Shown piece by piece: positions 2,021 to 29,266 of a stretch of 64,000 nucleotides of DNA. The stretch is from Candidatus Sulfotelmatobacter sp. (GTDB lineage Bacteria > Vulcanimicrobiota > Vulcanimicrobiia > Vulcanimicrobiales > Vulcanimicrobiaceae), in contig DATJRY010000019.1 in assembly GCA_035504415.1 (NCBI GenBank), positions 1 through 64,000 on the forward strand, in the 5' to 3' direction. The stretch's first letter is position 1. Each line of letters starts with the position of its first letter. The position numbers were made by a program, and so were the translations under genes. Under the pieces are notes generated by a model. That model was not told where the DNA came from. It saw only the letters and a list, made by a program, of their open reading frames with translations, and made no database searches.

Positions 2021-2958
2021 AAGGCCGTCGGGGCCGCGACGACCGGCATCTGCAGCTGCGCCAAGCCAAACGCGGTGAACAGCAAAACGGCGGCAAGCAA
2101 GGGGCCCGAGGCGGCGATGCGCGGCGAGACGTCGCGGCTGGCGTCGATCAGGCGATCGACGCGCGCCAGCACTTGGCTGCGGCCGACGAAGAAGCCCGGG
2201 ACGACCGCGATGCGCCGGCCGCGCAGCTGACGGTCGACGATGTTCGTGAGGCACTCGGCATACGCGAGCGGATGACCGATCGCGTGCAGCACGACGTCGT
2301 CGCAGGCGACCTCGCGCTCGAAGTCGATGCGCCGCGCGACGTAGTGCAGCACGGGATGGAAGAAGAGGAGCGCGCCGACGATCCGCTGGGCCGCGTTGAG
2401 CCAGTCGTCGTAGCGCCGCAGGTGCGCGTGCTCGTGGACGATCACGCGCGTCAGGTCGGCCGGTTCGAGCGCGTCGGCGAGCGCGGTCGGCACCACGATC
2501 ATCGGTCGCACGAAGCCGATGGCGCACGGGACGCGCACGCGTGCCGAGGCGCCGAGCGCGACCGGACGGCCGCGGCGCAGGTCGAGCGCGGCTCCGGGCG
2601 CGTCGAGCGGCTTCGCATCGGTCTTGAGCTCGAGGACGACGGCGAAGCGCCACAGCAGCCGCACCAGCAGCACCACCGCCGCGCTCGTCCACAGCAGCAC
2701 CGTGAACGGTGCCGCGCGGCTGATGACGAACCCGGCACGGTGCACGGCGACGCTCGCCGCGAGCGCCTGCGCGGGATGCGCGGTCGCGACGTCGATGAGC
2801 GGCAACGCCGCCACCAAGAAGTACGTCGCCGTCCACAGCGCGCAGGCCGTCGCCGCGTTGCGCTGCGGCCACAAGCGCAACGCGAGCGCGACCAGCGCGA
2901 CCAACAGCGCGCCTTGCCAGACGCCGTTGAGCAGAGCGGTGAGGGTGAGCGCGGTCAT
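1882..2958 (-). CDS. BlaR1/MecR1-type M56 metallopeptidase
   Basis: Membrane-bound zinc peptidase that, in known BlaR1/BlaI-type pairs, relays an external signal by triggering repressor cleavage. The 358-residue protein has an N-terminal membrane segment, further hydrophobic stretches near residues 83-108, and the zinc motif HEHAH at 175-179 followed by RRYDDW, with a second metal-side acidic helix (EREVACDD). A last membrane segment comes near residue 280. It lacks the roughly 250-residue penicillin-sensor domain of true BlaR1, so beta-lactam sensing is not implied. Its start overlaps the BlaI stop as ATGA, indicating translational coupling. Confidence 0.85.
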   Translation of the reverse strand: MTALTLTALLNGVWQGALLVALVALALRLWPQRNAATACALWTATYFLVAALPLIDVATAHPAQALAASVAVHRAGFVISRAAPFTVLLWTSAAVVLLVRLLWRFAVVLELKTDAKPLDAPGAALDLRRGRPVALGASARVRVPCAIGFVRPMIVVPTALADALEPADLTRVIVHEHAHLRRYDDWLNAAQRIVGALLFFHPVLHYVARRIDFEREVACDDVVLHAIGHPLAYAECLTNIVDRQLRGRRIAVVPGFFVGRSQVLARVDRLIDASRDVSPRIAASGPLLAAVLLFTAFGLAQLQMPVVAAPTAFQPPRCTEGADAATTAAARIQPRSVSSAQVSAINDAAVTVRTASTE

Positions 2959-3344
2959 CGTTGTGCTCGCTTCGCGGCGTCGATGCGATGCCGCAGCTCG
3001 TCGAGTTGCTCCGGGGTGATCGCGGCGTCGTCGATCAGGTTGAGCGCGACCGACGCGGGTGAGCCGCCGAAGAAGCGTTGCGTGACGTAGGTGAGCGCGG
3101 TGCGGGCGGCCGTCTCGCGGTCGACGAGCGGCGAGTAGACGAACGCGCGTCCCTGTGCGCGGTGCTCGACGTAGCCCTTCGTTTCGAGGATCTTCAAGGT
3201 CGTCTGCACCGTGTTGTGCGCCGGCCGGTCCGCGAGGGGAATCGCATCGACGATCTGCCCCAAGCTGGCCGCTCCCAGCTGCCACATCACTTCCATGAGC
3301 CGCTGTTCCGCCTCGGTGAGCGGAACGGATCGTTTGCGAGCCAT
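2955..3344 (-). CDS. BlaI/MecI/CopY-family transcriptional repressor
   Basis: A 129-residue winged-helix repressor. The N-terminal segment LTEAEQRLMEVMWQLGAASL and following helices match the Penicillinase_R fold, and the C-terminal part (RFFGGSPASVALNLID) is the usual dimerisation and proteolysis region. It is the first gene of a two-gene unit with the M56 peptidase at 1882-2958. A near-perfect inverted repeat lies just upstream (3366-3383), so autorepression relieved by cleavage is the likely scheme. The signal and other targets are unknown. Confidence 0.92.
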   Translation of the reverse strand: MARKRSVPLTEAEQRLMEVMWQLGAASLGQIVDAIPLADRPAHNTVQTTLKILETKGYVEHRAQGRAFVYSPLVDRETAARTALTYVTQRFFGGSPASVALNLIDDAAITPEQLDELRHRIDAAKRAQR

Positions 3345-19985: not shown

Positions 19986-20278
19986 TCCGCGTCGTGCTGC
20001 CGGCGAACCTGCGCGCGCTGGCGCGGCTGCCGGGCGAGGTGGAGCTCGAGCTGAGCGGCGAGCCGACGCCGGCCGCGGTCCTCGACGCGCTCGAAGCGCG
20101 CTACCCGATGCTGCGCGGAACGATCCGCGACCACGCGACGCTGCGCCGTCGCCCGTACGTGCGCTACTTCGCGTGCGAGCGCGACATCTCGCACGAACCG
20201 GCGGACGCACCCCTGCCGGCCGCGGTCGCCGCCGGCGCCGAACCGCTGCTCATCCTGGGCGCCCTCTCGGGCGGCTGA
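19982..20278 (+). CDS. MoaD/ThiS family sulfur-carrier-like protein
   Basis: A 98-residue ubiquitin-fold protein. It ends in ALSGG, the Gly-Gly tail that is adenylated and thiocarboxylated in MoaD/ThiS carriers. The start GTG overlaps the BNR gene. It may be a dedicated MoaD-like carrier for the molybdenum enzyme of this operon or a sulfur donor for another reaction; no MoaE or E1-like partner is encoded nearby. It is the last gene of the operon starting at 11669. Confidence 0.82.
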
Positions 20279-20289
20279 TCGCCGCGGCC

Positions 20290-21042
20290 TCACCAATGGC
20301 CGGAAGCGCCGCCTCCGCCGAACCCGCCGCCGCCCCCCGAGAAGCCGCCGCCGAAGCCGCCACCGCCGCCGCCGACGAAGCCGCCCCATCCGCTCGCCGG
20401 CCCCATCGCGCTCGACATCAGGAATGCGTCGAGCCAATCGCCGCGCGGCTTCCCGCGCCGGACGATGGTCACGACGACGGCGAGCACGATGCAGACGATC
20501 AGTCCGAAGAAGACCAGCGCCGCGAAGCCTTCGCCCCAACCGTCGTCGTCGCCGGACGACGGCGGCGGTGAGGGCGCCGCGGCCAAGACCGAGGCGGCGG
20601 CCGGGTCGATGACCACCAACATGTGATCGACGCCGCCGCGCACCGCGCCGTCGACGTCGCCGTGCCGCATCGCGGGCAAGATATCGTCCCGAATGATCTG
20701 CGCCGACTGGGCGTCGGTCAGCTTCGACTCCAAGCCGTACCCGACTTCGATGCGTACTGCGTGGTCGCGCATGAAGACGAACAGGATCGCGCCGTCGTCC
20801 TTCCCTTTGCGGCCGATCTTCCAGCGCTCGGCGGTGTCCGAGGTCCAGGTTTCGAGCGGAACGCCGCCCGTCGTGTCGCCGATCCAGACGATCACCTGGT
20901 GGCCGGTTTGCGTCTCGAACCCCCGCAGGTCGCCTTCGATCGCGGCGCGCGTCGGCGCGCTGAGCGCGTCGACGGTGTCGGTCACGTGTTGCGTCGGCGC
21001 GGGGGGAATCGTCAGCGCGGCGAGCAGCACCAGCCCGATCAC
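20290..21042 (-). CDS. TPM-domain protein with Gly-rich tail (YgcG-like)
   Basis: A 250-residue protein with a signal sequence, a TPM domain (residues about 20-150; VTDTVDALSAPTRAAIEGDL, then GAILFVFMRDHAVRIEVGYGLE), one membrane segment near 180-205 and a tail of Gly/Phe/Ser repeats ending in GHW. TPM domains with such tails occur in proteins linked to photosystem repair in plants or membrane protein quality control; the function in bacteria is unclear. Start GTG overlaps the preceding gene's stop. It forms an operon with LemA and a second TPM protein. Confidence 0.85.
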   Translation of the reverse strand: MIGLVLLAALTIPPAPTQHVTDTVDALSAPTRAAIEGDLRGFETQTGHQVIVWIGDTTGGVPLETWTSDTAERWKIGRKGKDDGAILFVFMRDHAVRIEVGYGLESKLTDAQSAQIIRDDILPAMRHGDVDGAVRGGVDHMLVVIDPAAASVLAAAPSPPPSSGDDDGWGEGFAALVFFGLIVCIVLAVVVTIVRRGKPRGDWLDAFLMSSAMGPASGWGGFVGGGGGGFGGGFSGGGGGFGGGGASGHW

Positions 21043-21419
21043 GGCGTCGCCTCGGTGAAGTGCTCGTGCAAGGCGGCGCCGAGGCGGTCGATCCCGAGCA
21101 CGATGGCATCGGCCGGCGTGCGCGTCTTGAACGCGGCGCTCATCTCCGCGACCAGCCCGTCCCAAAACGGCTGACCGACGCGCTCGTGCAGCGCGCGGTC
21201 GCCGAGGACCGCGAACGCGCGCGCCTTGGGCGCGACCAAGATGAGCCCCGCGTTCGCGCCGGGGTGCGTGTGCAGGCCGCCGCTGAGGAACTCGTCCTTG
21301 GCCCGCTCGAACGCGTCGAGCGTGGCGTCGGGGACGATGCGCACGGCCAAGCGCGAGGAGGTCCCGGTCTCGGCGCGGAGCAGCGCGGCTTGGATGCGCT
21401 CCCGGTCGCGGCGGTTCAC
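21039..21419 (-). CDS. Second TPM-domain protein, short
   Basis: A 126-residue protein consisting mainly of a TPM domain (SSRLAVRIVPDATLDAFERA, AGLILVAPKARAFAVLGDRALH). No signal peptide or membrane helix is present, so it should be cytoplasmic, in contrast to its neighbour. It overlaps LemA upstream and the Gly-rich TPM gene downstream by GTGA junctions. The LemA-TPM-TPM order is a common conserved set; the combined role is unknown. Confidence 0.82.
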   Translation of the reverse strand: MNRRDRERIQAALLRAETGTSSRLAVRIVPDATLDAFERAKDEFLSGGLHTHPGANAGLILVAPKARAFAVLGDRALHERVGQPFWDGLVAEMSAAFKTRTPADAIVLGIDRLGAALHEHFTEATP

Positions 21420-22024
21420 GGCGAGAAGTTGACGGTCGGCGCCGTTTGCGCGCCCGGCTGCGCTTCGAAGTACGGCTTGGGCGCGAACTGCGCGCCGAAC
21501 AACCCGACGATGAAGACCGTCGGCGCGGTCGCGCGCGCCGTGTTGAACGCGCGCGCGTCGTCGTTGTAGCGCTTGCGCTCGACGGCGATGCGGTTTTCCG
21601 TCCCCTCCAGCTGCGACTGCAGCGTGAGGAAGTTCTGGCTCGCCTTGAGGTCGGGATAGTTCTCGACCGTGACCAGCAGATGCGAGAGCGCGGCGCCGAG
21701 CTGGTCCTGCGCTTGCGCGTCCTGCGCGAACGCGTGGGGATCGCTCAGCGCGTTCTGCACCGCGGAGGCGGGCAGCTGGCCGACGGCGGCACGCGCTTGC
21801 GTCACGGCGAGGTAGGTGCTCTTCTCGAAGTTGGCCGCGCCCTTGACCGTGGCGACCAGGTTCGGCACCAGATCGGCGCGGCGCTGGTAGACGTTCTGTA
21901 CCTGACCCCACTGGGCGTCGACGGCCTGGTCGAGCTGCACCAGCCGGTTGTACGTCGCGACGACGTAGAGGAGCACGATGACCACGATCGCGCCGGCGAT
22001 CCAGAGGGAGCGGCGTCCTGACAC
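21416..22024 (-). CDS. lemA: LemA family protein
   Basis: A 202-residue protein with one N-terminal membrane helix (IAGAIVVIVLLYVVATYN) and the LemA signature region RRADLVPNLVATVKG, followed by long helices and the LEGTENRIAVERKRYND block. The GTG at 22024 is chosen because an AAGGAGG ribosome site precedes it by five bases; in-frame starts further upstream are less likely. It is the first gene of the lemA-TPM-TPM unit, inserted in the inner membrane with most of the protein outside. Confidence 0.9.
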   Translation of the reverse strand: MSGRRSLWIAGAIVVIVLLYVVATYNRLVQLDQAVDAQWGQVQNVYQRRADLVPNLVATVKGAANFEKSTYLAVTQARAAVGQLPASAVQNALSDPHAFAQDAQAQDQLGAALSHLLVTVENYPDLKASQNFLTLQSQLEGTENRIAVERKRYNDDARAFNTARATAPTVFIVGLFGAQFAPKPYFEAQPGAQTAPTVNFSP

Positions 22025-22080
22025 GAGAGCCTCCTTGCTCGGCCCTTCCGCCGGGTAACCAGGCAAGCCTGCCGCGCCGT

Positions 22081-22110
22081 TTGACCGTGCCCGGAGGGCT
22101 GTGGTAGCGT
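22081..22110 (+). promoter_or_regulatory. Promoter of the polycysteine leader and peroxiredoxin
   Basis: TTGACC (22081-22086) and TAGCGT (22105-22110) are separated by 18 bp. Transcription would start about 7 bases later, at or next to the A of the leader ATG at 22118, so the leader mRNA would be leaderless or nearly so. Confidence 0.6.
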
Positions 22111-22117
22111 GAAGGCG

Positions 22118-22198
22118 ATGTTCGAAACCGGCCGTAGCGCGATGTGCTGCTGTCTCTGTCGCCCCCGAACGGGTCGGCCCGGTTTCTCATTGGCCTGA
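22118..22198 (+). CDS. Polycysteine leader peptide (26 aa)
   Basis: A small reading frame encoding MFETGRSAMCCCLCRPRTGR... and ending at TGA 22196-22198. Four of five consecutive codons (22145-22159) are cysteine. It follows its promoter with almost no 5' untranslated region and precedes a strong intrinsic terminator and the peroxiredoxin gene. The arrangement is that of a transcription attenuation leader in which ribosome stalling reports charged tRNA-Cys. An internal ATG at 22142 would give an 18-residue peptide with the same cysteines. Known analogues are polycysteine upstream ORFs in mycobacteria, though those act by other means. Confidence 0.65.
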   Translation: MFETGRSAMCCCLCRPRTGRPGFSLA

Positions 22199-22234
22199 CG
22201 GAACGCACCGTCGACCACGAGACCTCCGCCGACC
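22172..22234 (+). promoter_or_regulatory. Candidate antiterminator pairing in the leader
   Basis: GGTCGGC at 22172-22178, inside the leader frame, is the exact complement of GCCGACC at 22228-22234, which overlaps the 5' arm and loop of the terminator. Pairing would block the terminator. A ribosome paused on the Cys codons would leave 22172-22178 free; one at the leader stop codon would cover it. A small GACGG/CCGTC hairpin (22197-22201/22208-22212) lies between. Confidence 0.55.
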
Positions 22235-22253
22235 GGCGGGGGTCTTTTCGTTT
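22221..22253 (+). terminator. Intrinsic terminator between leader and peroxiredoxin (attenuator)
   Basis: GACCTCCGCC (22221-22230) pairs with GGCGGGGGTC (22235-22244) in a 10-bp stem with one G-U pair and a GACC loop, followed directly by TTTTCGTTT. It is the clearest Rho-independent terminator in the window and lies 23 bases after the leader stop and 45 bases before the peroxiredoxin ATG. Confidence 0.85.
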
Positions 22254-22297
22254 CATCACATCTCGGCATCGCAGCACCGGAACCGTAAGGAGAATCC

Positions 22298-22945
22298 ATG
22301 TCACTGCAGCTCGGAGACACCGCTCCGGACTTCACCCAAGACTCGACGCAGGGTCCGCTCCACTTCTACGACTACGCGGGAGACAGTTGGGTCGTGCTCT
22401 TCTCGCACCCGGCGGATTTCACGCCGGTGTGCACGACCGAGCTCGGCGAGACCGCGCGCCTCAAGCCCGAGTTCGACAAGCGCAACGTCAAGGTCATCGG
22501 CCTCTCGGTCGATCCCGCCGACAAGCACGGCAACTGGGCCAAGGACATCGCCGAGGTCGGCGGCACCGCGCTCAACTTCCCGCTGATCGCCGACGCCGAC
22601 CGCAAGGTCTCGCAGCTCTACGATCTGATCCACCCCAACGCGCTGGCGACCGCGACGGTCCGCTCCGTGTTCGTCATCGACCCGCAGAAGAAAGTGCGCC
22701 TGACGCTGACCTACCCGGCGGCGACGGGTCGCAACTTCGAAGAGATCCTGCGCGTGATCGACTCGCTGCAGCGCACCGACAACTACAAAGTCGCAACGCC
22801 GGTCAACTGGAAGCAAGGCGAGGACGTCATCATCACCAGCGCGGTGAGCGACGAAGAAGCGGCGCAGAAGTTCCCCGGCTACAAGACGATCAAGCCGTAC
22901 CTGCGCACGACGCCGGACCCGGCGAAGCAGCCCGCGACGGTCTGA
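22298..22945 (+). CDS. 1-Cys peroxiredoxin (Prx6/AhpC-TSA family)
   Basis: A 215-residue thiol peroxidase. The active-site block PADFTPVCTTE places the peroxidatic cysteine at Cys45, and it is the only cysteine in the protein, so this is a 1-Cys enzyme needing an external thiol reductant. The C-terminal Prx domain (KQGEDVIITSAVSDEEA...YLRTT) matches the Prx6 subgroup. The ATG follows AAGGAG. Expression appears to be controlled by a cysteine-coding leader and terminator upstream (22118-22253), which would link peroxide defence to cysteine supply. Confidence 0.93.
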   Translation: MSLQLGDTAPDFTQDSTQGPLHFYDYAGDSWVVLFSHPADFTPVCTTELGETARLKPEFDKRNVKVIGLSVDPADKHGNWAKDIAEVGGTALNFPLIADADRKVSQLYDLIHPNALATATVRSVFVIDPQKKVRLTLTYPAATGRNFEEILRVIDSLQRTDNYKVATPVNWKQGEDVIITSAVSDEEAAQKFPGYKTIKPYLRTTPDPAKQPATV

Positions 22946-22950
22946 TCGCG

Positions 22951-22967
22951 GCCGGCTGATAGCCGGC
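22951..22967 (+). terminator. Weak hairpin after peroxiredoxin gene
   Basis: GCCGGC-TGATA-GCCGGC forms a 6-bp stem 5 bp after the peroxiredoxin stop. No T run follows, so it may need Rho or only stabilise the mRNA end. Confidence 0.3.
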
Positions 22968-23041
22968 GTCTATGACGCGATGGGCGATGCGCCGTCGCGT
23001 CGGGCCTTCGCCTATGGTATCTATGAAGGATGCTTGCGGCG

Positions 23042-24295
23042 ATGACCTCGCCCGCGCGGGTCGATCTTGCGGCCGCGCGCGGCTTGGTCTTGAACGGTTT
23101 GGCGCCCGTGCCGGCCGAGTCCGTCCCGCTTGCCGACGCGGCGGGTCGGATCGTCGCGCATCCGATCCGAGCGCTCGACGACCTCGTGCCGTTCGCCCGT
23201 TCCGGGATGGACGGCTACGCGGTTCGCGCGGACGATACGACCGGCGCGGTCGCCGGAGCGCTGGTGCTCCCCGTGGTCGGAACGGCGTTTGCCGGCGAGG
23301 CGCCGGCGCCGCTGCAGCCCGGAACCGCCGCCGCGATTGCGACCGGTGGGGCGCTGCCGCCGGGTGCCGACGCGGTCGTCCCCTTCGAAGAGGTCGACGA
23401 CCGCGGCGCGACGATCGTCGTGCGCGCACCGGTCGCCGCCGGCGCTCACGTGTTTCTGCCCGGTGACGACGCCCGTCGCGGCGAGGTCGTGCTCGAGCCC
23501 GGCCGGGTCGTCACGCCGGGGATCGCCGCGTTGCTGGCCGCCGCCGGACACGCCGTGGTCCCCGTCCACCGCCGCCCGTGGGTCACCATCGTGTCGACCG
23601 GCGACGAGCTGGTGCCGGTCGACGAGCGGCCGGCGTTCGGGCAGATCCGCGACAGCAACGCGACGTTGCTGGCCGCCTGCGTGCGCCGCGACGGCGGTGA
23701 GGTCGAGCGCTGCGTGCGGGTGCGAGATGCCTTCGAACCGTTGCGCGACGCGCTGTTGCGCGCGCTCGACGACAGCGATCTGATCGTGACGACCGGCGGC
23801 GCGTCGACCGGCGAGCGCGACTACGCCAAGCGCGCGGTGCGCGCCGCCGGCGGAACGTTCGCGTTCGAGTCGGTCGCGCTGCGGCCGGCCCGGCCCAGCG
23901 CGTTCGCGCGCCGCGGCGCGGCCGCGATCGCGGTGCTGCCCGGCAATCCTGCCGCCGCGCACGTCGCGTACGCCGCGCTCGTGCGCGCGGCGCTGCTGCG
24001 GCTGGGCGGCCGCACCGACGTCGCCGCGCCGCACGTCGCCGCGGTGCTCGACGGCACCCTGCGCGGCAAGGCCGATCGGCACTTCCTGGTGTTCGGGCGC
24101 CTCTCGCACGACGGCACGCGTTTCCGCGTGCGCCCACTGCCCAACCAGTGCTCGTCGCTGGTGCGCACGTCGGCCGACGCCGACGCGCTGATCGTCGTCC
24201 CGCCGGGCGCGGGACTGCTCGCCACCGGCGCCGAGGTCGGTGTCGACGTCCTGGACTGGACGGGCGTCGCTTTTTCCGGGAGTCCCAGAGCATGA
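23042..24295 (+). CDS. moeA: Molybdopterin molybdenumtransferase MoeA
   Basis: Inserts molybdenum into adenylated molybdopterin, the last common step of cofactor synthesis. The 417-residue protein shows the MoeA order: an N-terminal domain with VPFARSGMDGYAVRADDT, the IATGGALPPGADAVVPFEEV segment, a MoCF domain with VSTGDELVP and TTGGASTGERD, and a C-terminal domain containing VLPGNPAAAHVAY. ATG 23042 fits a GAAGGA site about 12 bases upstream; ATG 23030 is an alternative. It overlaps fdsG as ATGA, tying cofactor supply to formate dehydrogenase. Confidence 0.93.
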   Translation: MTSPARVDLAAARGLVLNGLAPVPAESVPLADAAGRIVAHPIRALDDLVPFARSGMDGYAVRADDTTGAVAGALVLPVVGTAFAGEAPAPLQPGTAAAIATGGALPPGADAVVPFEEVDDRGATIVVRAPVAAGAHVFLPGDDARRGEVVLEPGRVVTPGIAALLAAAGHAVVPVHRRPWVTIVSTGDELVPVDERPAFGQIRDSNATLLAACVRRDGGEVERCVRVRDAFEPLRDALLRALDDSDLIVTTGGASTGERDYAKRAVRAAGGTFAFESVALRPARPSAFARRGAAAIAVLPGNPAAAHVAYAALVRAALLRLGGRTDVAAPHVAAVLDGTLRGKADRHFLVFGRLSHDGTRFRVRPLPNQCSSLVRTSADADALIVVPPGAGLLATGAEVGVDVLDWTGVAFSGSPRA

Positions 24296-24822
24296 ACGTG
24301 ATCTCGCTGCTCGACGCGCCGCTGCCGCGGAAAGTCGCCGAGCTGCAGCTGGACGACGAGCAGCAGGCCGTCGTCGCGCGCGTCCTCGCCGAGCGTGGTG
24401 CGCTGCCCGGCGCGCTGCTGCCGGTGCTGCACGGCGTGCAAGACGCGCTCGGCTACGTGCCCGACGCGGCGCTGCCGGAGATCGCGCGCGGCTTGAACCT
24501 CACGCGGGCCGAGGTCTACGGCGTCGTCACCTTCTATCACCACTTCCGCCGCCACGCGCCGGCGCGGCACATCGTGCAGATCTGTCAGGCCGAAGCGTGC
24601 AAGGCGATGGGCGCCGACGCGCTGACCGCGCACGCGAAGGCGTCGCTGGGCGTCGACTTCCACCAGAACACGGCTGACGGCGCGGTCACCTTGCTGCCGG
24701 TCTACTGTTTGGGCAACTGCGCCTGCTCGCCGTCGGTGGCCGTCGGCGACGACGTGCACGCGCGGGTGACGCCGCAGAAGTTCGACGTGCTGATCGCCGA
24801 GCTGCGCGAGGCCGCGCGATGA
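24292..24822 (+). CDS. fdsG: NAD-dependent formate dehydrogenase gamma subunit (NuoE-like)
   Basis: A 176-residue thioredoxin-like [2Fe-2S] protein. Cluster ligands appear as CQAEAC and CLGNC, the C-x4-C and C-x3-C pattern of NuoE/FdsG. It starts inside the moeA stop (ATGA) and overlaps fdsB by four bases. In the soluble FdsGBA complex it pairs with the FMN subunit. The following genes place it in formate dehydrogenase rather than complex I. Confidence 0.92.
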   Translation: MNVISLLDAPLPRKVAELQLDDEQQAVVARVLAERGALPGALLPVLHGVQDALGYVPDAALPEIARGLNLTRAEVYGVVTFYHHFRRHAPARHIVQICQAEACKAMGADALTAHAKASLGVDFHQNTADGAVTLLPVYCLGNCACSPSVAVGDDVHARVTPQKFDVLIAELREAAR

Positions 24823-26366
24823 CGACCGTCTACGTGCCGCGCGAGACGACCGCCAACGCGCTGGGCGCCGAACGGGTCGCGCGCGCGATCGCGGCCGAGG
24901 CGGAGAAGCGCGGCGCGGCGGTGCGGGTCGTGCGCAACGGCTCGCGCGGGATGTGCTTCCTCGAGCCGCTGGTCGAGGTCGCGACCCGCTTCGGGCGCGT
25001 CGCGTACGGGCCGGTCGAACCGGGCGACGTGCCGGGACTGTTCGACGCCGGCTTCTTGGCCGGGGCGCCGCACCACCTCGGCCACGGCCCGACCGAGGCG
25101 ATCCCGTATCTGGCCAAACAGGAACGGCTGACGTTCGCACGCGCCGGGATCGTCGATCCGCTCTCGCTCGACGACTACCTCGCGCACGACGGCTATCGCG
25201 GCTTGCGCAACGCGCTCGCGCTGGACGGAGCCGCGATCGTCGAGGCGGTCACCGACTCCGGCTTGCGCGGCCGCGGCGGCGCCGCATTCCCGACCGGGAT
25301 CAAATGGAAGACCGTCCTCGGCGCGCAAGCCGATCAGAAATACGTCGTCTGCAACGCCGACGAGGGCGACTCGGGGACGTTCTCCGACCGCATGATCATG
25401 GAGTGCGATCCGTTCGTGCTCATCGAGGGGATGACGATCGCGGCGGTCGCGGTCGGCGCGACGCGGGGCTATATCTACGTTCGTTCCGAGTACCCGCTGG
25501 CCAAGCGGATTCTCGACGCCGCGATCGCGATCGCGTACGAGCGCGGCTACCTCGGCGGCGACGTCCTGAAGTCGGGCAAGCGCTTCGATCTCGAGACGCG
25601 ACTGGGGGCCGGAGCGTACATCTGCGGTGAGGAGACCTCGCTGCTCGAAAGCCTCGAAGGCAAGCGCGGGATGGTGCGCTTCAAACCGCCGCTGCCCGCC
25701 GTCGAAGGGCTGTTCGGCAAGCCGACGGTCATCAACAACCTGGTCTCGTTCGCGTCGGTCCCGATCATCCTCGATCGCGGCGCGGCGTTCTATCGCGACT
25801 ACGGGATGGGCCGCTCGCGCGGCACGCTGCCGTTCCAGCTGGCCGGCAACGTCAAGCAGGGCGGCCTGGTGGAGAAGGCGTTCGGCATCACCCTGCGCGA
25901 GCTGCTGCACGACTTCGGCGGCGGAAGCGCGAGCGGCAAGCCGATCCGTACGGCGCAGGTCGGCGGCCCGCTCGGCGCCTACGTCCCGGCCGCGCAGTTC
26001 GACACGCCGCTCGACTACGAAGCGTTCGTCGCGATCGGCGCGATGCTGGGTCACGGCGGCGTCGTCGCCTTCGACGAGGGGGTCGACATGGCGCAGATGG
26101 CGCGCTACGCGATGGAGTTCTGTGCGATCGAGTCGTGCGGCAAGTGTACGCCGTGCCGGATCGGCTCGACGCGCGGCGTCGAGACGATCGACAAGATCCT
26201 CGCCGGCGAGCGGGTCGAAGCGAACCTCGAGCTGCTCGAAGACCTGTGCGTGACGATGCGCGACGCGTCGCTGTGCGCGCTGGGCGGGCTCACGCCGCTG
26301 CCCGTCGAGAGCGCCCTCAAACATTTCCCGCACGACTTCGGCTTGCCCACCCCGACGGCCGTCTGA
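24819..26366 (+). CDS. fdsB: NAD-dependent formate dehydrogenase beta subunit (NuoF-like)
   Basis: A 515-residue flavoprotein that reduces NAD+. An N-terminal thioredoxin-like region (to about residue 125) is followed by the FMN/NADH module (LRGRGGAAFPTGIKWK, CNADEGDSGTFSDR), a soluble ligand-binding beta-grasp region and a C-terminal [4Fe-4S] site, ESCGKCTPCRIG, with the fourth cysteine in DASLCALGG. The order matches FdsB/HoxF-type proteins. It lies between fdsG (overlap) and fdsA (20-bp gap). Confidence 0.95.
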   Translation: MTTVYVPRETTANALGAERVARAIAAEAEKRGAAVRVVRNGSRGMCFLEPLVEVATRFGRVAYGPVEPGDVPGLFDAGFLAGAPHHLGHGPTEAIPYLAKQERLTFARAGIVDPLSLDDYLAHDGYRGLRNALALDGAAIVEAVTDSGLRGRGGAAFPTGIKWKTVLGAQADQKYVVCNADEGDSGTFSDRMIMECDPFVLIEGMTIAAVAVGATRGYIYVRSEYPLAKRILDAAIAIAYERGYLGGDVLKSGKRFDLETRLGAGAYICGEETSLLESLEGKRGMVRFKPPLPAVEGLFGKPTVINNLVSFASVPIILDRGAAFYRDYGMGRSRGTLPFQLAGNVKQGGLVEKAFGITLRELLHDFGGGSASGKPIRTAQVGGPLGAYVPAAQFDTPLDYEAFVAIGAMLGHGGVVAFDEGVDMAQMARYAMEFCAIESCGKCTPCRIGSTRGVETIDKILAGERVEANLELLEDLCVTMRDASLCALGGLTPLPVESALKHFPHDFGLPTPTAV

Positions 26367-26386
26367 CCCGAAAGGCACCCATTCGC

Positions 26387-29266
26387 ATGCAATCGATCGT
26401 CGACGTCGACTTCGGAACCCCGCGCTCCCCGAGCACGCAGCTGATCGCGCTCGAGGTCGACGGCATCGCCGTCACCGTCCCGCAGGGCAGCTCGGTCATG
26501 TACGCGGCCACGCAGGCGGGAACGAAGGTGCCCAAGCTGTGCGCGACCGACAGCCTGGAACCGTTCGGTTCGTGCCGCTTGTGCGTGGTCGAGATCGAAG
26601 GCCGCCGCGGCTATCCGGCCTCGTGCACGACGCCGGCCGAGCCCGGCATGAAGGTGCACACGCAGAGCGGCAAGCTCGGCGACCTGCGCCGCAACGTGAT
26701 GGAGCTGTACATCTCCGATCACCCGCTGGACTGTCTGACCTGCCCCGCCAACGGGAACTGCGAGCTGCAGGACATGGCGGGTGCGGTCGGCCTGCGCGAC
26801 GTGCGCTACGGCTACGAGGGCGTCACCCACACCCATCAGGCCAAGGACACCTCGAACCCGTACTTCACCTTCGATCCGTCGAAGTGCATCCTGTGCAGCC
26901 GGTGCGTGCGCGCCTGCGACGAGGTGCAAGGAACGCTGGCGCTGACGGTCGAGGGCCGCGGCTTCGACTCGCACATCTCGCCCGGCATGATGGAAAGCTT
27001 CATGGACTCCGAGTGCGTCTCGTGCGGCGCCTGCGTGCAGGCGTGCCCGACCGAGACGCTGACGGAGACGTCGGTCATTCGTCTCGGCCAGCCGACGCGC
27101 AGCGTGATGACGACCTGCGCCTACTGCGGCGTCGGCTGCTCGTTCAAGGCCGAGATGAAGGGCGAAGAGGTCGTGCGGCTGGTCCCCAACAAGGACGGCC
27201 ACGCCAACCACGGCCACTCGTGCGTCAAGGGCCGCTTCGCGTTCGGTTACGCGACGCACCCCGACCGCATCACCTCGCCGATGATCCGCGAGAAGATCAC
27301 CGATCCGTGGCGCGAGGTCGGTTGGGACGAGGCGTTCAGCTACGCCGCCGGCAAGTTCAAGGCGATCCAGGCGAAGTACGGGCGCGAGTCGGTCGGCGCG
27401 ATCAGCTCGTCGCGCTGTACCAACGAAGAGGTCTGGCTGGTGCAGAAGCTGGTGCGCGCCGGCTTCGGCAACAACAACGTCGACACGTGCGCGCGCGTCT
27501 GCCACTCGCCGACCGGCTTCGGCCTCAAGACGACGATCGGCGAGTCGGCCGGGACGCAGACCTTCGACTCGGTGATGAAGGCCGACGTGGTCTTCGTCAT
27601 CGGCGCCAACCCGACCGACGGCCATCCCGTCTTCGGCTCGCAGATGAAGCGCCGGCTGCGCCAGGGCGCCAAGCTGATCGTCGCCGACCCGCGCGGCATC
27701 GACCTGGTGCGCACGCCGCACGTGCGCGCCGCGCATCACCTCAAGCTGCGTCCGGGCACCAACGTCGCGCTGCTCAACTCGCTCGCGCACGTGATCGTCA
27801 CCGAGGGACTCGCCGACGACGCCTTCGCGCGCGAGCGCTGCGAGCCGGCCGAGTACGAGAAGTGGAAGTCGTTCGTCGCGCAGGAGCGCCACTCGCCCGA
27901 GGCGCTCGAGAGCGTGACCGGCGTTCCGGCCGCCGACCTGCGCGCGGCGGCGCGCCTGTACGCGAGCGCGCCCAACGCGGCGATCTACTACGGGTTGGGC
28001 GTCACCGAGCACAGCCAAGGCTCGACCGCCGTCATGGGGATCGCGAACCTCGCGATGGCGACCGGCAACTTCGGGCGCGAAGGCGTCGGCGTCAATCCGC
28101 TGCGCGGCCAGAACAACGTCCAAGGCTCGTGCGACATGGGCTCGTTCCCGCACGAGTTCAGCGGGTACCGCCACGTCTCCGACGCCGGCGTGCGCGGGAT
28201 GTTCGAAGCGGCCTGGGGCGTCTCGCTCGACGGCGAGCCGGGGCTGCGCATCCCCAACATGTTCGAGGCCGCCCTCGACGGCTCGTTCAAAGGCCTCTAC
28301 TTGCAGGGCGAGGACATCGCGCAGTCCGATCCCGACACGCAGCACGTCGAGGCGGCGCTGACCGCGATGGAGTGCATCGTCGTGCACGACATCTTCCTCA
28401 ACGAGACGGCGAAGTACGCGCACGTCATCCTGCCGGGCAGCTCGTTCCTGGAAAAGAACGGCACCTTCACCAACGCCGAGCGCCGCATCCAGCGCGTGCG
28501 CAAGGTCATGACCCCGCTGGCCGGCAAGGAAGATTGGGAAGTGACGATGGGGCTGGCCGCGGCGCTGGGCTACCCGATGCACTACACCCACCCCAGCCAG
28601 ATCATGGACGAGATCGCGGAGCTCACGCCGACCTTCACCGGCGTGAGCTACGAAAAGCTCGATGAGCTGGGCAGCATCCAGTGGCCGTGCAACGACGGCG
28701 CGCCGGACGGCACGCCGACGATGCACGCGCAGACGTTCGTGCGCGGCAAGGGCAACTTCGTGCTGACCGAGTACGTCGCGACCGAGGAGAAGGTCACCCG
28801 CAAGTTCCCGCTCTTGCTGACGACGGGGCGCATCCTCTCGCAGTACAACGTCGGCGCGCAGACGCGGCGCACCGAGAACGGCCGCTGGCACGAGATCGAT
28901 CGCCTGGAGATCCACCCGCACGACGCCGAGGACCGCGGCATCAAGGAAGGCGACCTGGTCGAGATCGCCAGCCGCGTCGGATCGACGGTGTTGCCGGCGA
29001 AGATCACCGAGCGCGTGCAGCCGGGCGTCGTCTACACGACCTTCCACTACCCGACCTCGGGCGCCAACGTCGTCACCACCGACAACTCCGATTGGGCGAC
29101 CAATTGCCCCGAGTACAAGGTGACCGCGGTGCAGGTCTCGCGCGTGCTCACGCCCTCGGAGTGGCAGCAGCGCAAGAGCACCTTCGACGAAGAGCAGGAA
29201 CTGCTGCTGCGGCACGGTTTGGCCGTCGACGAACCGGCCGCGCCGCCCGTCGGCGCGCCGCGTTAG
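26387..29266 (+). CDS. fdsA: NAD-dependent formate dehydrogenase alpha subunit (molybdenum)
   Basis: The 959-residue catalytic subunit oxidises formate to CO2 at a bis-MGD centre. In order: an N-terminal [2Fe-2S] ferredoxin domain (CATDS...CRLC), a His/Cys-ligated cluster (HPLDCLTCPANGNC), two [4Fe-4S] sets (CILCSRCVRAC, CVSCGACVQACP), and the MGD domain with its own cluster (CAYCGVGC) and the metal ligand in ARVCH. The ligand, Cys372, is encoded by TGC, so this is a cysteine, not selenocysteine, enzyme. The C-terminal molydopterin-binding domain is complete (NSDWATNCPEYK). Confidence 0.96.
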   Translation: MQSIVDVDFGTPRSPSTQLIALEVDGIAVTVPQGSSVMYAATQAGTKVPKLCATDSLEPFGSCRLCVVEIEGRRGYPASCTTPAEPGMKVHTQSGKLGDLRRNVMELYISDHPLDCLTCPANGNCELQDMAGAVGLRDVRYGYEGVTHTHQAKDTSNPYFTFDPSKCILCSRCVRACDEVQGTLALTVEGRGFDSHISPGMMESFMDSECVSCGACVQACPTETLTETSVIRLGQPTRSVMTTCAYCGVGCSFKAEMKGEEVVRLVPNKDGHANHGHSCVKGRFAFGYATHPDRITSPMIREKITDPWREVGWDEAFSYAAGKFKAIQAKYGRESVGAISSSRCTNEEVWLVQKLVRAGFGNNNVDTCARVCHSPTGFGLKTTIGESAGTQTFDSVMKADVVFVIGANPTDGHPVFGSQMKRRLRQGAKLIVADPRGIDLVRTPHVRAAHHLKLRPGTNVALLNSLAHVIVTEGLADDAFARERCEPAEYEKWKSFVAQERHSPEALESVTGVPAADLRAAARLYASAPNAAIYYGLGVTEHSQGSTAVMGIANLAMATGNFGREGVGVNPLRGQNNVQGSCDMGSFPHEFSGYRHVSDAGVRGMFEAAWGVSLDGEPGLRIPNMFEAALDGSFKGLYLQGEDIAQSDPDTQHVEAALTAMECIVVHDIFLNETAKYAHVILPGSSFLEKNGTFTNAERRIQRVRKVMTPLAGKEDWEVTMGLAAALGYPMHYTHPSQIMDEIAELTPTFTGVSYEKLDELGSIQWPCNDGAPDGTPTMHAQTFVRGKGNFVLTEYVATEEKVTRKFPLLLTTGRILSQYNVGAQTRRTENGRWHEIDRLEIHPHDAEDRGIKEGDLVEIASRVGSTVLPAKITERVQPGVVYTTFHYPTSGANVVTTDNSDWATNCPEYKVTAVQVSRVLTPSEWQQRKSTFDEEQELLLRHGLAVDEPAAPPVGAPR

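Follow-up and report, generated by a model that had tools for sequence, protein, structure and literature searches.

A candidate cysteine-responsive attenuator in front of a 1-Cys peroxiredoxin gene

We propose that a ribosome-mediated transcription attenuator, one that would sense charged tRNA-Cys, controls the 1-Cys peroxiredoxin (Prx) gene in the 64,000-nucleotide stretch of DNA analyzed here (the window). We put the probability of this reading at about 0.84. The analysis supports an element that has every sequence-level feature of an attenuator that was tested, and that is predicted to behave like a classical attenuator when its RNA is folded. Such a switch would probably turn the Prx gene on during cysteine shortage. 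The parts of the element, their position-dependent refolding and the recurrence of the arrangement in relatives are all computed.

Leader, terminator and gene

The gene (22298-22945, + strand) encodes a protein that combines AhpC-TSA and 1-cysPrx_C domains with one Cys residue only, which agrees with the first-pass annotation of this DNA and places the enzyme in the 1-Cys (Prx6/LsfA-type) class. Its closest PDB matches are 6p0w and 7kuu, and it scores 209.7 against NF009668, just under the cutoff of 211. A Shine-Dalgarno sequence, AAGGAG, can be read at 22287-22292 (+). Further upstream the leader peptide frame MFETGRSAMCCCLCRPRTGRPGFSLA-stop runs for 26 codons on the same strand, from an ATG at 22118 to the stop codon at 22196-22198; an in-frame GTG at 22109 would lengthen it to 29 codons. 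The putative sensor is the cluster TGC TGC TGT CTC TGT (22145-22159, +), where four of the five codons are Cys. A promoter-like pair, TTGACC (22081-22086) and TAGCGT (22105-22110) separated by 18 bp, is also read from the + strand sequence, about 7 nt upstream of the leader ATG. Since the predicted start lies at about 22117, the frame would be nearly leaderless. In short, the candidate attenuator places a small frame, its regulatory codons clustered, between the promoter-like pair and the gene.

Direct reading bears out the coordinates, the near-leaderless frame and the Cys cluster described by the first-pass annotation. The promoter it called is a different matter: the pair is present, but its match is weak and below the threshold of a consensus scan, which does not list it, and what speaks for it is a single thing, the equivalent layout in two relatives (L005 and L003, below). 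A start downstream of 22200 had been named as evidence against the proposal; no promoter candidate is seen by eye in the 50 nt that separate the terminator from the gene, and the consensus scan gives none there.

The terminator consists of region 3 (22219-22234, +), which is the 5' arm (22219-22230) plus the loop, and region 4 (22235-22254, +), which is the 3' arm (22235-22246) plus the T-rich tail TTTTCGTTTC. Its T run, already noted in the earlier reading, is there and is imperfect; the stem has 12 pairs, two of them G.U, rather than the 10 given before. Because a T run is absent on the opposite strand, the terminator is directed at the Prx gene. The upstream neighbour is a LemA-family gene (21416-22066, - strand) that is divergent, which leaves the Prx transcript as the only obvious owner of the terminator. 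We considered whether the terminator is a property of this upstream gene and rejected the idea since the gene points away. What stands before the structural gene is a predicted intrinsic terminator that does not belong to the gene upstream.

The switch would work through two further regions. Region 1, GAAACCGG (22124-22131, +), pairs with 22179-22186 (CCGGTTTC) to make a protector helix. Region 2 (22172-22186, +) is the antiterminator strand and contains GGTCGGC (22172-22178) and GGTTTC (22181-22186). The first of these is an exact 7-bp complement of GCCGACC at 22228-22234, as had been claimed, and the second pairs with GAGACC at 22219-22224. Once the 3' arm has been synthesized, GCCCCCG at 22161-22167 can also pair with 22237-22243. 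With these extra helices the antiterminator occupies most of the terminator 5' arm; the 7-bp helix by itself would fall short of this.

The surroundings of the gene can be described briefly. On the - strand, from 22066 back to 20290, the LemA-family gene is followed by a TPM-domain gene, both divergent from Prx. On the + strand (23030-29266) a MoeA-family gene, tested by HMM, heads the downstream frames; judged by their translations alone, those after it resemble NuoE/NuoF-type and molybdopterin formate dehydrogenase-type subunits. No Rfam family matched positions 20000-25000 up to E=1, and on this basis a known riboswitch or RNA family was rejected.

Folding with a ribosome on the leader

When a ribosome is placed on the window RNA codon by codon, the RNA folds into 1:2, 2:3 and 3:4 states. 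With no ribosome the protector helix has a probability of 0.90 and the terminator, P(terminator), one of 0.93. A ribosome at Cys10 or Cys11 lowers P(terminator) to 0.03 or 0.01, and region 2 is then paired with the terminator 5' arm. From Cys12 onward it is at least 0.85, and at the stop codon it is 0.97. None of 400 dinucleotide shuffles equals this switch. The antiterminator is favoured already when the terminator 5' arm alone is transcribed.

These results uphold the idea that a ribosome on the Cys codons frees 22172-22178 to act against the terminator, but the antiterminator is larger than the 7-bp helix first proposed. It had also been suggested that a ribosome at the stop codon covers 22172-22178. 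This is not so; it covers 22181-22186 instead, and termination is restored because of this and because the terminator has no rival among the other pairings open to the remaining RNA.

We also used a stricter model, in which the RNA on either side of the ribosome is free to pair across it. With a footprint of A-17..A+13, P(terminator) is 0.12 and 0.42 at the first two Cys codons. The window switch holds in this model with a 5' footprint of at least A-17, where 1 of 300 shuffles is as good, and disappears with A-14 or shorter. In folding, the antiterminator is favoured only with a ribosome on the regulatory codons, and this depends on the footprint, which is the softest point of the computation.

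We infer that the region is transcribed, that the leader is translated and that it responds to cysteine. With ample Cys-tRNA the ribosome would clear the Cys codons, region 2 would be covered or kept in the 1:2 helix, and RNA polymerase would halt near 22250 at the 3:4 hairpin that then forms. With scarce Cys-tRNA the ribosome would stall at 22145-22150, the first Cys codons, thereby covering region 1, so that region 2 could pair with the terminator 5' arm and allow read-through into the Prx gene.

How often such an arrangement arises by chance

Short frames with four Cys in five codons occur at 0.05 per 64-kb Markov-shuffled window, and none of 20 such windows has one with a terminator behind it. 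In the real window the Prx leader stands alone as a short frame that has both a Cys cluster and a terminator behind it. We found no second Cys leader with a terminator in the part of the window's genome examined for the patterns CCCC and CCC-x-C, nor in 16 kb around each of its two PAPS-reductase-family genes. These searches give no support for a Cys-leader regulon in the genome of the window.

Relatives of the window's peroxiredoxin

Eleven genomes of the genus were sampled, and at E 1e-40 or better the window's genome is the only one with a close match to this Prx; the ten others have none at that threshold, hence no leader to compare. Nine of 99 genomes sampled from the family have a match at E 1e-50 or better. 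Four of these nine (L002, which is the window, and L003, L004 and L005) form one supported clade in the Prx tree, so the leader-bearing L002, L003 and L005 stand together with the leaderless L004.

L005 belongs to a different genus, its Prx protein is 72% identical, and its leader does not resemble that of the window at the nucleotide level. It has a promoter-like pair (TTGACC-17-TAAGGT), the leader MNTSHASICCCCLPEGVG-stop and a strong terminator, and it shows an equal three-state switch: P(terminator) lies between 0.09 and 0.01 while the ribosome is on its four Cys codons, and it is 0.87 both at the stop codon and with no ribosome. This is matched by 0-2 of 400 and 1 of 300 shuffles in the main measures and by 7 of 400 in the weakest variant. 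L003 (Prx protein 79% identical) has the pair TGGACA-18-TAGGAT, then 7 nt and the ATG of the leader MLRISSCPCTGPAMSACRSSFAMS-stop, with three Cys codons in 24. The distance from promoter-like pair to leader ATG is 7-11 nt in L005 and L003. Despite its leader and strong terminator, L003 gives no predicted switch on folding; the element may have decayed there, or it may act in a different way. In L004 (77% identical) the leader element is absent, having apparently been lost or never gained. The architecture is conserved despite sequence change in L005, partly in L003 and not in L004. The remoter Prx loci of the phylum (L006-L010, L151-L156) have no leader of the window type.

Polycysteine leaders in the Acidobacteriota

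We scanned 80 similar Prx genes from other phyla for upstream Cys leaders. An Acidobacteriota MAG, L017, has MIHSHQTICLCYCSNTCSCCCR-stop upstream of Prx, and within its order polycysteine leaders lie directly upstream of Prx at 5 of 9 loci, in five species: MIHSHQTICLCYCSNTCSCCCR-stop, MIHSRQTICCCPCTCSCCCR-stop, MLQSFQSICCCSRTETCTCCCR-stop, MVYTFPTSFCYPLTCSCCCR-stop and MFIRHDSVIFSQHTFPCCCCLPCCCR-stop. All five end in CCCR-stop. The recurrence of Cys codons that the first-pass annotation called for is clear here and in L005, and weak in L003. In four of the five the last codons of the leader overlap a hairpin, GYCGG...CCGRC, behind which lies a T-rich stretch, and the hairpin of L161 carries a compensated change from C:G to U:A. 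L166 has the leader and no visible hairpin. The Acidobacteriota terminator is weaker than the one in the window. A ribosome stalled on the last Cys codons would, judging from these positions, occupy the 5' arm of the hairpin.

Some 80 to 30 nt before the Prx start in L159-L162, two small hairpins, TTGTT...AACAA and GYCGG...CCGRC, overlap and are mutually exclusive. They sit at the end of the leader, and one pair shows a compensatory change.

Elsewhere in the Acidobacteriota class 75 more Prx loci were scanned; only L232 has a Cys-cluster frame, which is not leader-like, so the leader seems restricted to one order. On the Prx tree the leader label requires four changes, of which starred branches force at least two. 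The association of leader and Prx therefore originated more than once or was repeatedly lost.

Two other candidates were not retained. In L025 the frame MNFQAFCCFCAL sits in the terminator of the upstream gene and was judged to be chance. In L086, an Oxalobacteraceae Prx locus, the short Cys-rich frame MRKPCCICMKFCYMQSP-stop ends 77 nt before the gene with no visible terminator, and it was set aside since no hairpin was seen by eye.

The link to sulfur

A search for CCCR-stop in the leader-bearing Acidobacteriota genomes turned up the same leader type ahead of other genes, identified here from their translations. In one genome MTCCYEYDKPCCCCR-stop (...KPCCCCR-stop) lies directly upstream of a cysteine synthase-like gene, and ...RTFPCCCCCCR-stop lies upstream of a small gene and a siroheme-synthase-like gene. 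The positions of these polycysteine leaders before cysteine synthase-like and siroheme-synthase-like genes are about 882 (+) in L285 and, on the - strand, about 875 of the reverse complement in L274. Leaders of one type before what appear to be cysteine metabolism genes support tRNA-Cys as the signal. The order apparently carries a Cys-leader regulon that has not been described, and the leader findings would fit a regulon for cysteine starvation.

Genes next to Prx in the window's relatives tell a similar story. In L004 Prx adjoins a gene for SsuA, an aliphatic-sulfonate-binding protein (351-1442, +; 234 bits against a cutoff of 163.5), and has a second SsuA-like gene, below the cutoff, on its other flank (2172-3170, -). 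In L003, too, a neighbouring gene (165-1139, -) is SsuA-like, with a score under the cutoff. These neighbours recall the organosulfur cluster of Pseudomonas lsfA. LsfA rises more than 45-fold in sulfur starvation in P. aeruginosa according to PMC12581299, and was named after its rise in low sulfate together with an organosulfur transport cluster (PMC4199769). The latter paper suggests that sulfonate use may cause oxidative stress via excess reduced flavins, and the former calls the reason for the rise of antioxidant genes during sulfur starvation largely unexplored. Induction of a 1-Cys Prx by sulfur starvation is thus established elsewhere; what appears to be new is a cis-acting switch made of Cys codons. 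The likely purpose is to join peroxide defence to the response to sulfur and cysteine starvation, whether the thiols that reduce Prx would then be scarce or sulfonate use would generate the oxidative stress.

Weighing the explanations

The most serious competitor accepts a translated, Cys-dependent leader and places the control in translation or Rho rather than intrinsic termination. The mycobacterial Cys leaders have no clear terminators and have been proposed to work in this way (PMC1262725; PMC13236596), and the leader of L166 has no visible hairpin. Against this, the window and L005 both have a strong intrinsic terminator between leader and gene that is itself the switching element, and when the whole leader of the window is folded, the terminator stays clear of the Shine-Dalgarno sequence. 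We consider this explanation improbable. Less probable still is a sensor of redox or metal state, in which the Cys cluster would act within a nascent arrest peptide instead of reporting tRNA charging. The target is an antioxidant gene, and oxidants or metals might act on the four closely spaced thiols. However, an arrest peptide would need likeness between the peptides, and the leaders of the window and L005 are dissimilar apart from Cys, the number and spacing of the Cys codons vary, and the same type of leader precedes a cysteine synthase-like gene.

It is equally hard to credit that an untranslated Cys-rich frame simply happens to lie near an unrelated terminator or hairpin. The promoter is weak, GC-rich DNA folds easily, and Cys-cluster frames do arise randomly before other Prx genes (L025, L075, L083). 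The rarity of the arrangement in shuffled windows and the switch statistics speak against coincidence, as do its recurrence in L005 and the Acidobacteriota and the divergent upstream gene, which leaves the terminator without another claimant. We believe the tRNA-Cys attenuator is the better explanation.

If it is correct, a cis-acting RNA ties Prx to cysteine supply, and its more than one origin would imply repeated selection for that link. Amino-acid attenuation would also be extended to phyla with few attenuators of assigned function, as is the case for the Acidobacteria (PMC2965389). Independently built candidate switches before the same gene in other bacteria make the connection between sulfur shortage and peroxide defence look real. 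We hold a wider version only tentatively, at somewhat worse than even odds: Cys-tRNA attenuators for 1-Cys Prx arose at least twice, in two phyla, as a convergent counterpart of the control of LsfA by proteins in pseudomonads, and the leader doubles as a peroxide/thiol sensor. It would double in this way since oxidants can deplete reduced cysteine. The sulfur control of LsfA is thought to run through protein regulators such as CysB.

Comparison with known regulators

Like the first-pass annotation, we know of no cysteine attenuator controlling a peroxiredoxin; none was reported in the open-licence literature searched. The nearest relative in design is uORFC-8-2, found before cysS in Rhodobacterales (PMC8632094), which shares with the window a short upstream frame, tandem Cys codons, an intrinsic terminator and the proposal of ribosome-mediated transcription attenuation by tRNA-Cys charging. 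It differs in controlling cysteinyl-tRNA synthetase, in its place in the Alphaproteobacteria and in having two Cys codons; no sequence relation was detected, the Rfam scan of 20000-25000 in the window being without a match. The mycobacterial polycysteine ORFs (Shell et al. PMC4633059; Seliverstov et al. PMC1262725; Canestrari et al. 2020, as cited in PMC13236596 and PMC9094748) are likewise leaderless or nearly so, with runs of Cys codons, and are Cys-responsive. Unlike the window leader they stand before cys/sulfur genes, no intrinsic terminator is described for them, and the model is translational or Rho-based.

The LsfA enzyme is of the same family as the window Prx and is induced by sulfur starvation along with organosulfur transport genes, and the available parts of PMC4199769 and PMC12581299 describe no leader attenuator for it. 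The PBC-28-3 motif before ahpC (PMC8632094) is also an RNA element ahead of a peroxiredoxin-family gene, but it is a single stem-loop at the start codon and is not described as a uORF attenuator. The three-state logic of the window RNA (1:2, 2:3 and 3:4 helices) is identical to that of the trp/his-type attenuators (Yanofsky), whereas the residue sensed would be Cys and the gene controlled encodes an antioxidant enzyme rather than a step in making that amino acid. That target, a peroxiredoxin, also lies outside the cysteine metabolism and charging that known Cys attenuators control. The mechanism, cysteine attenuation, would be one already known, and the target appears to be new.
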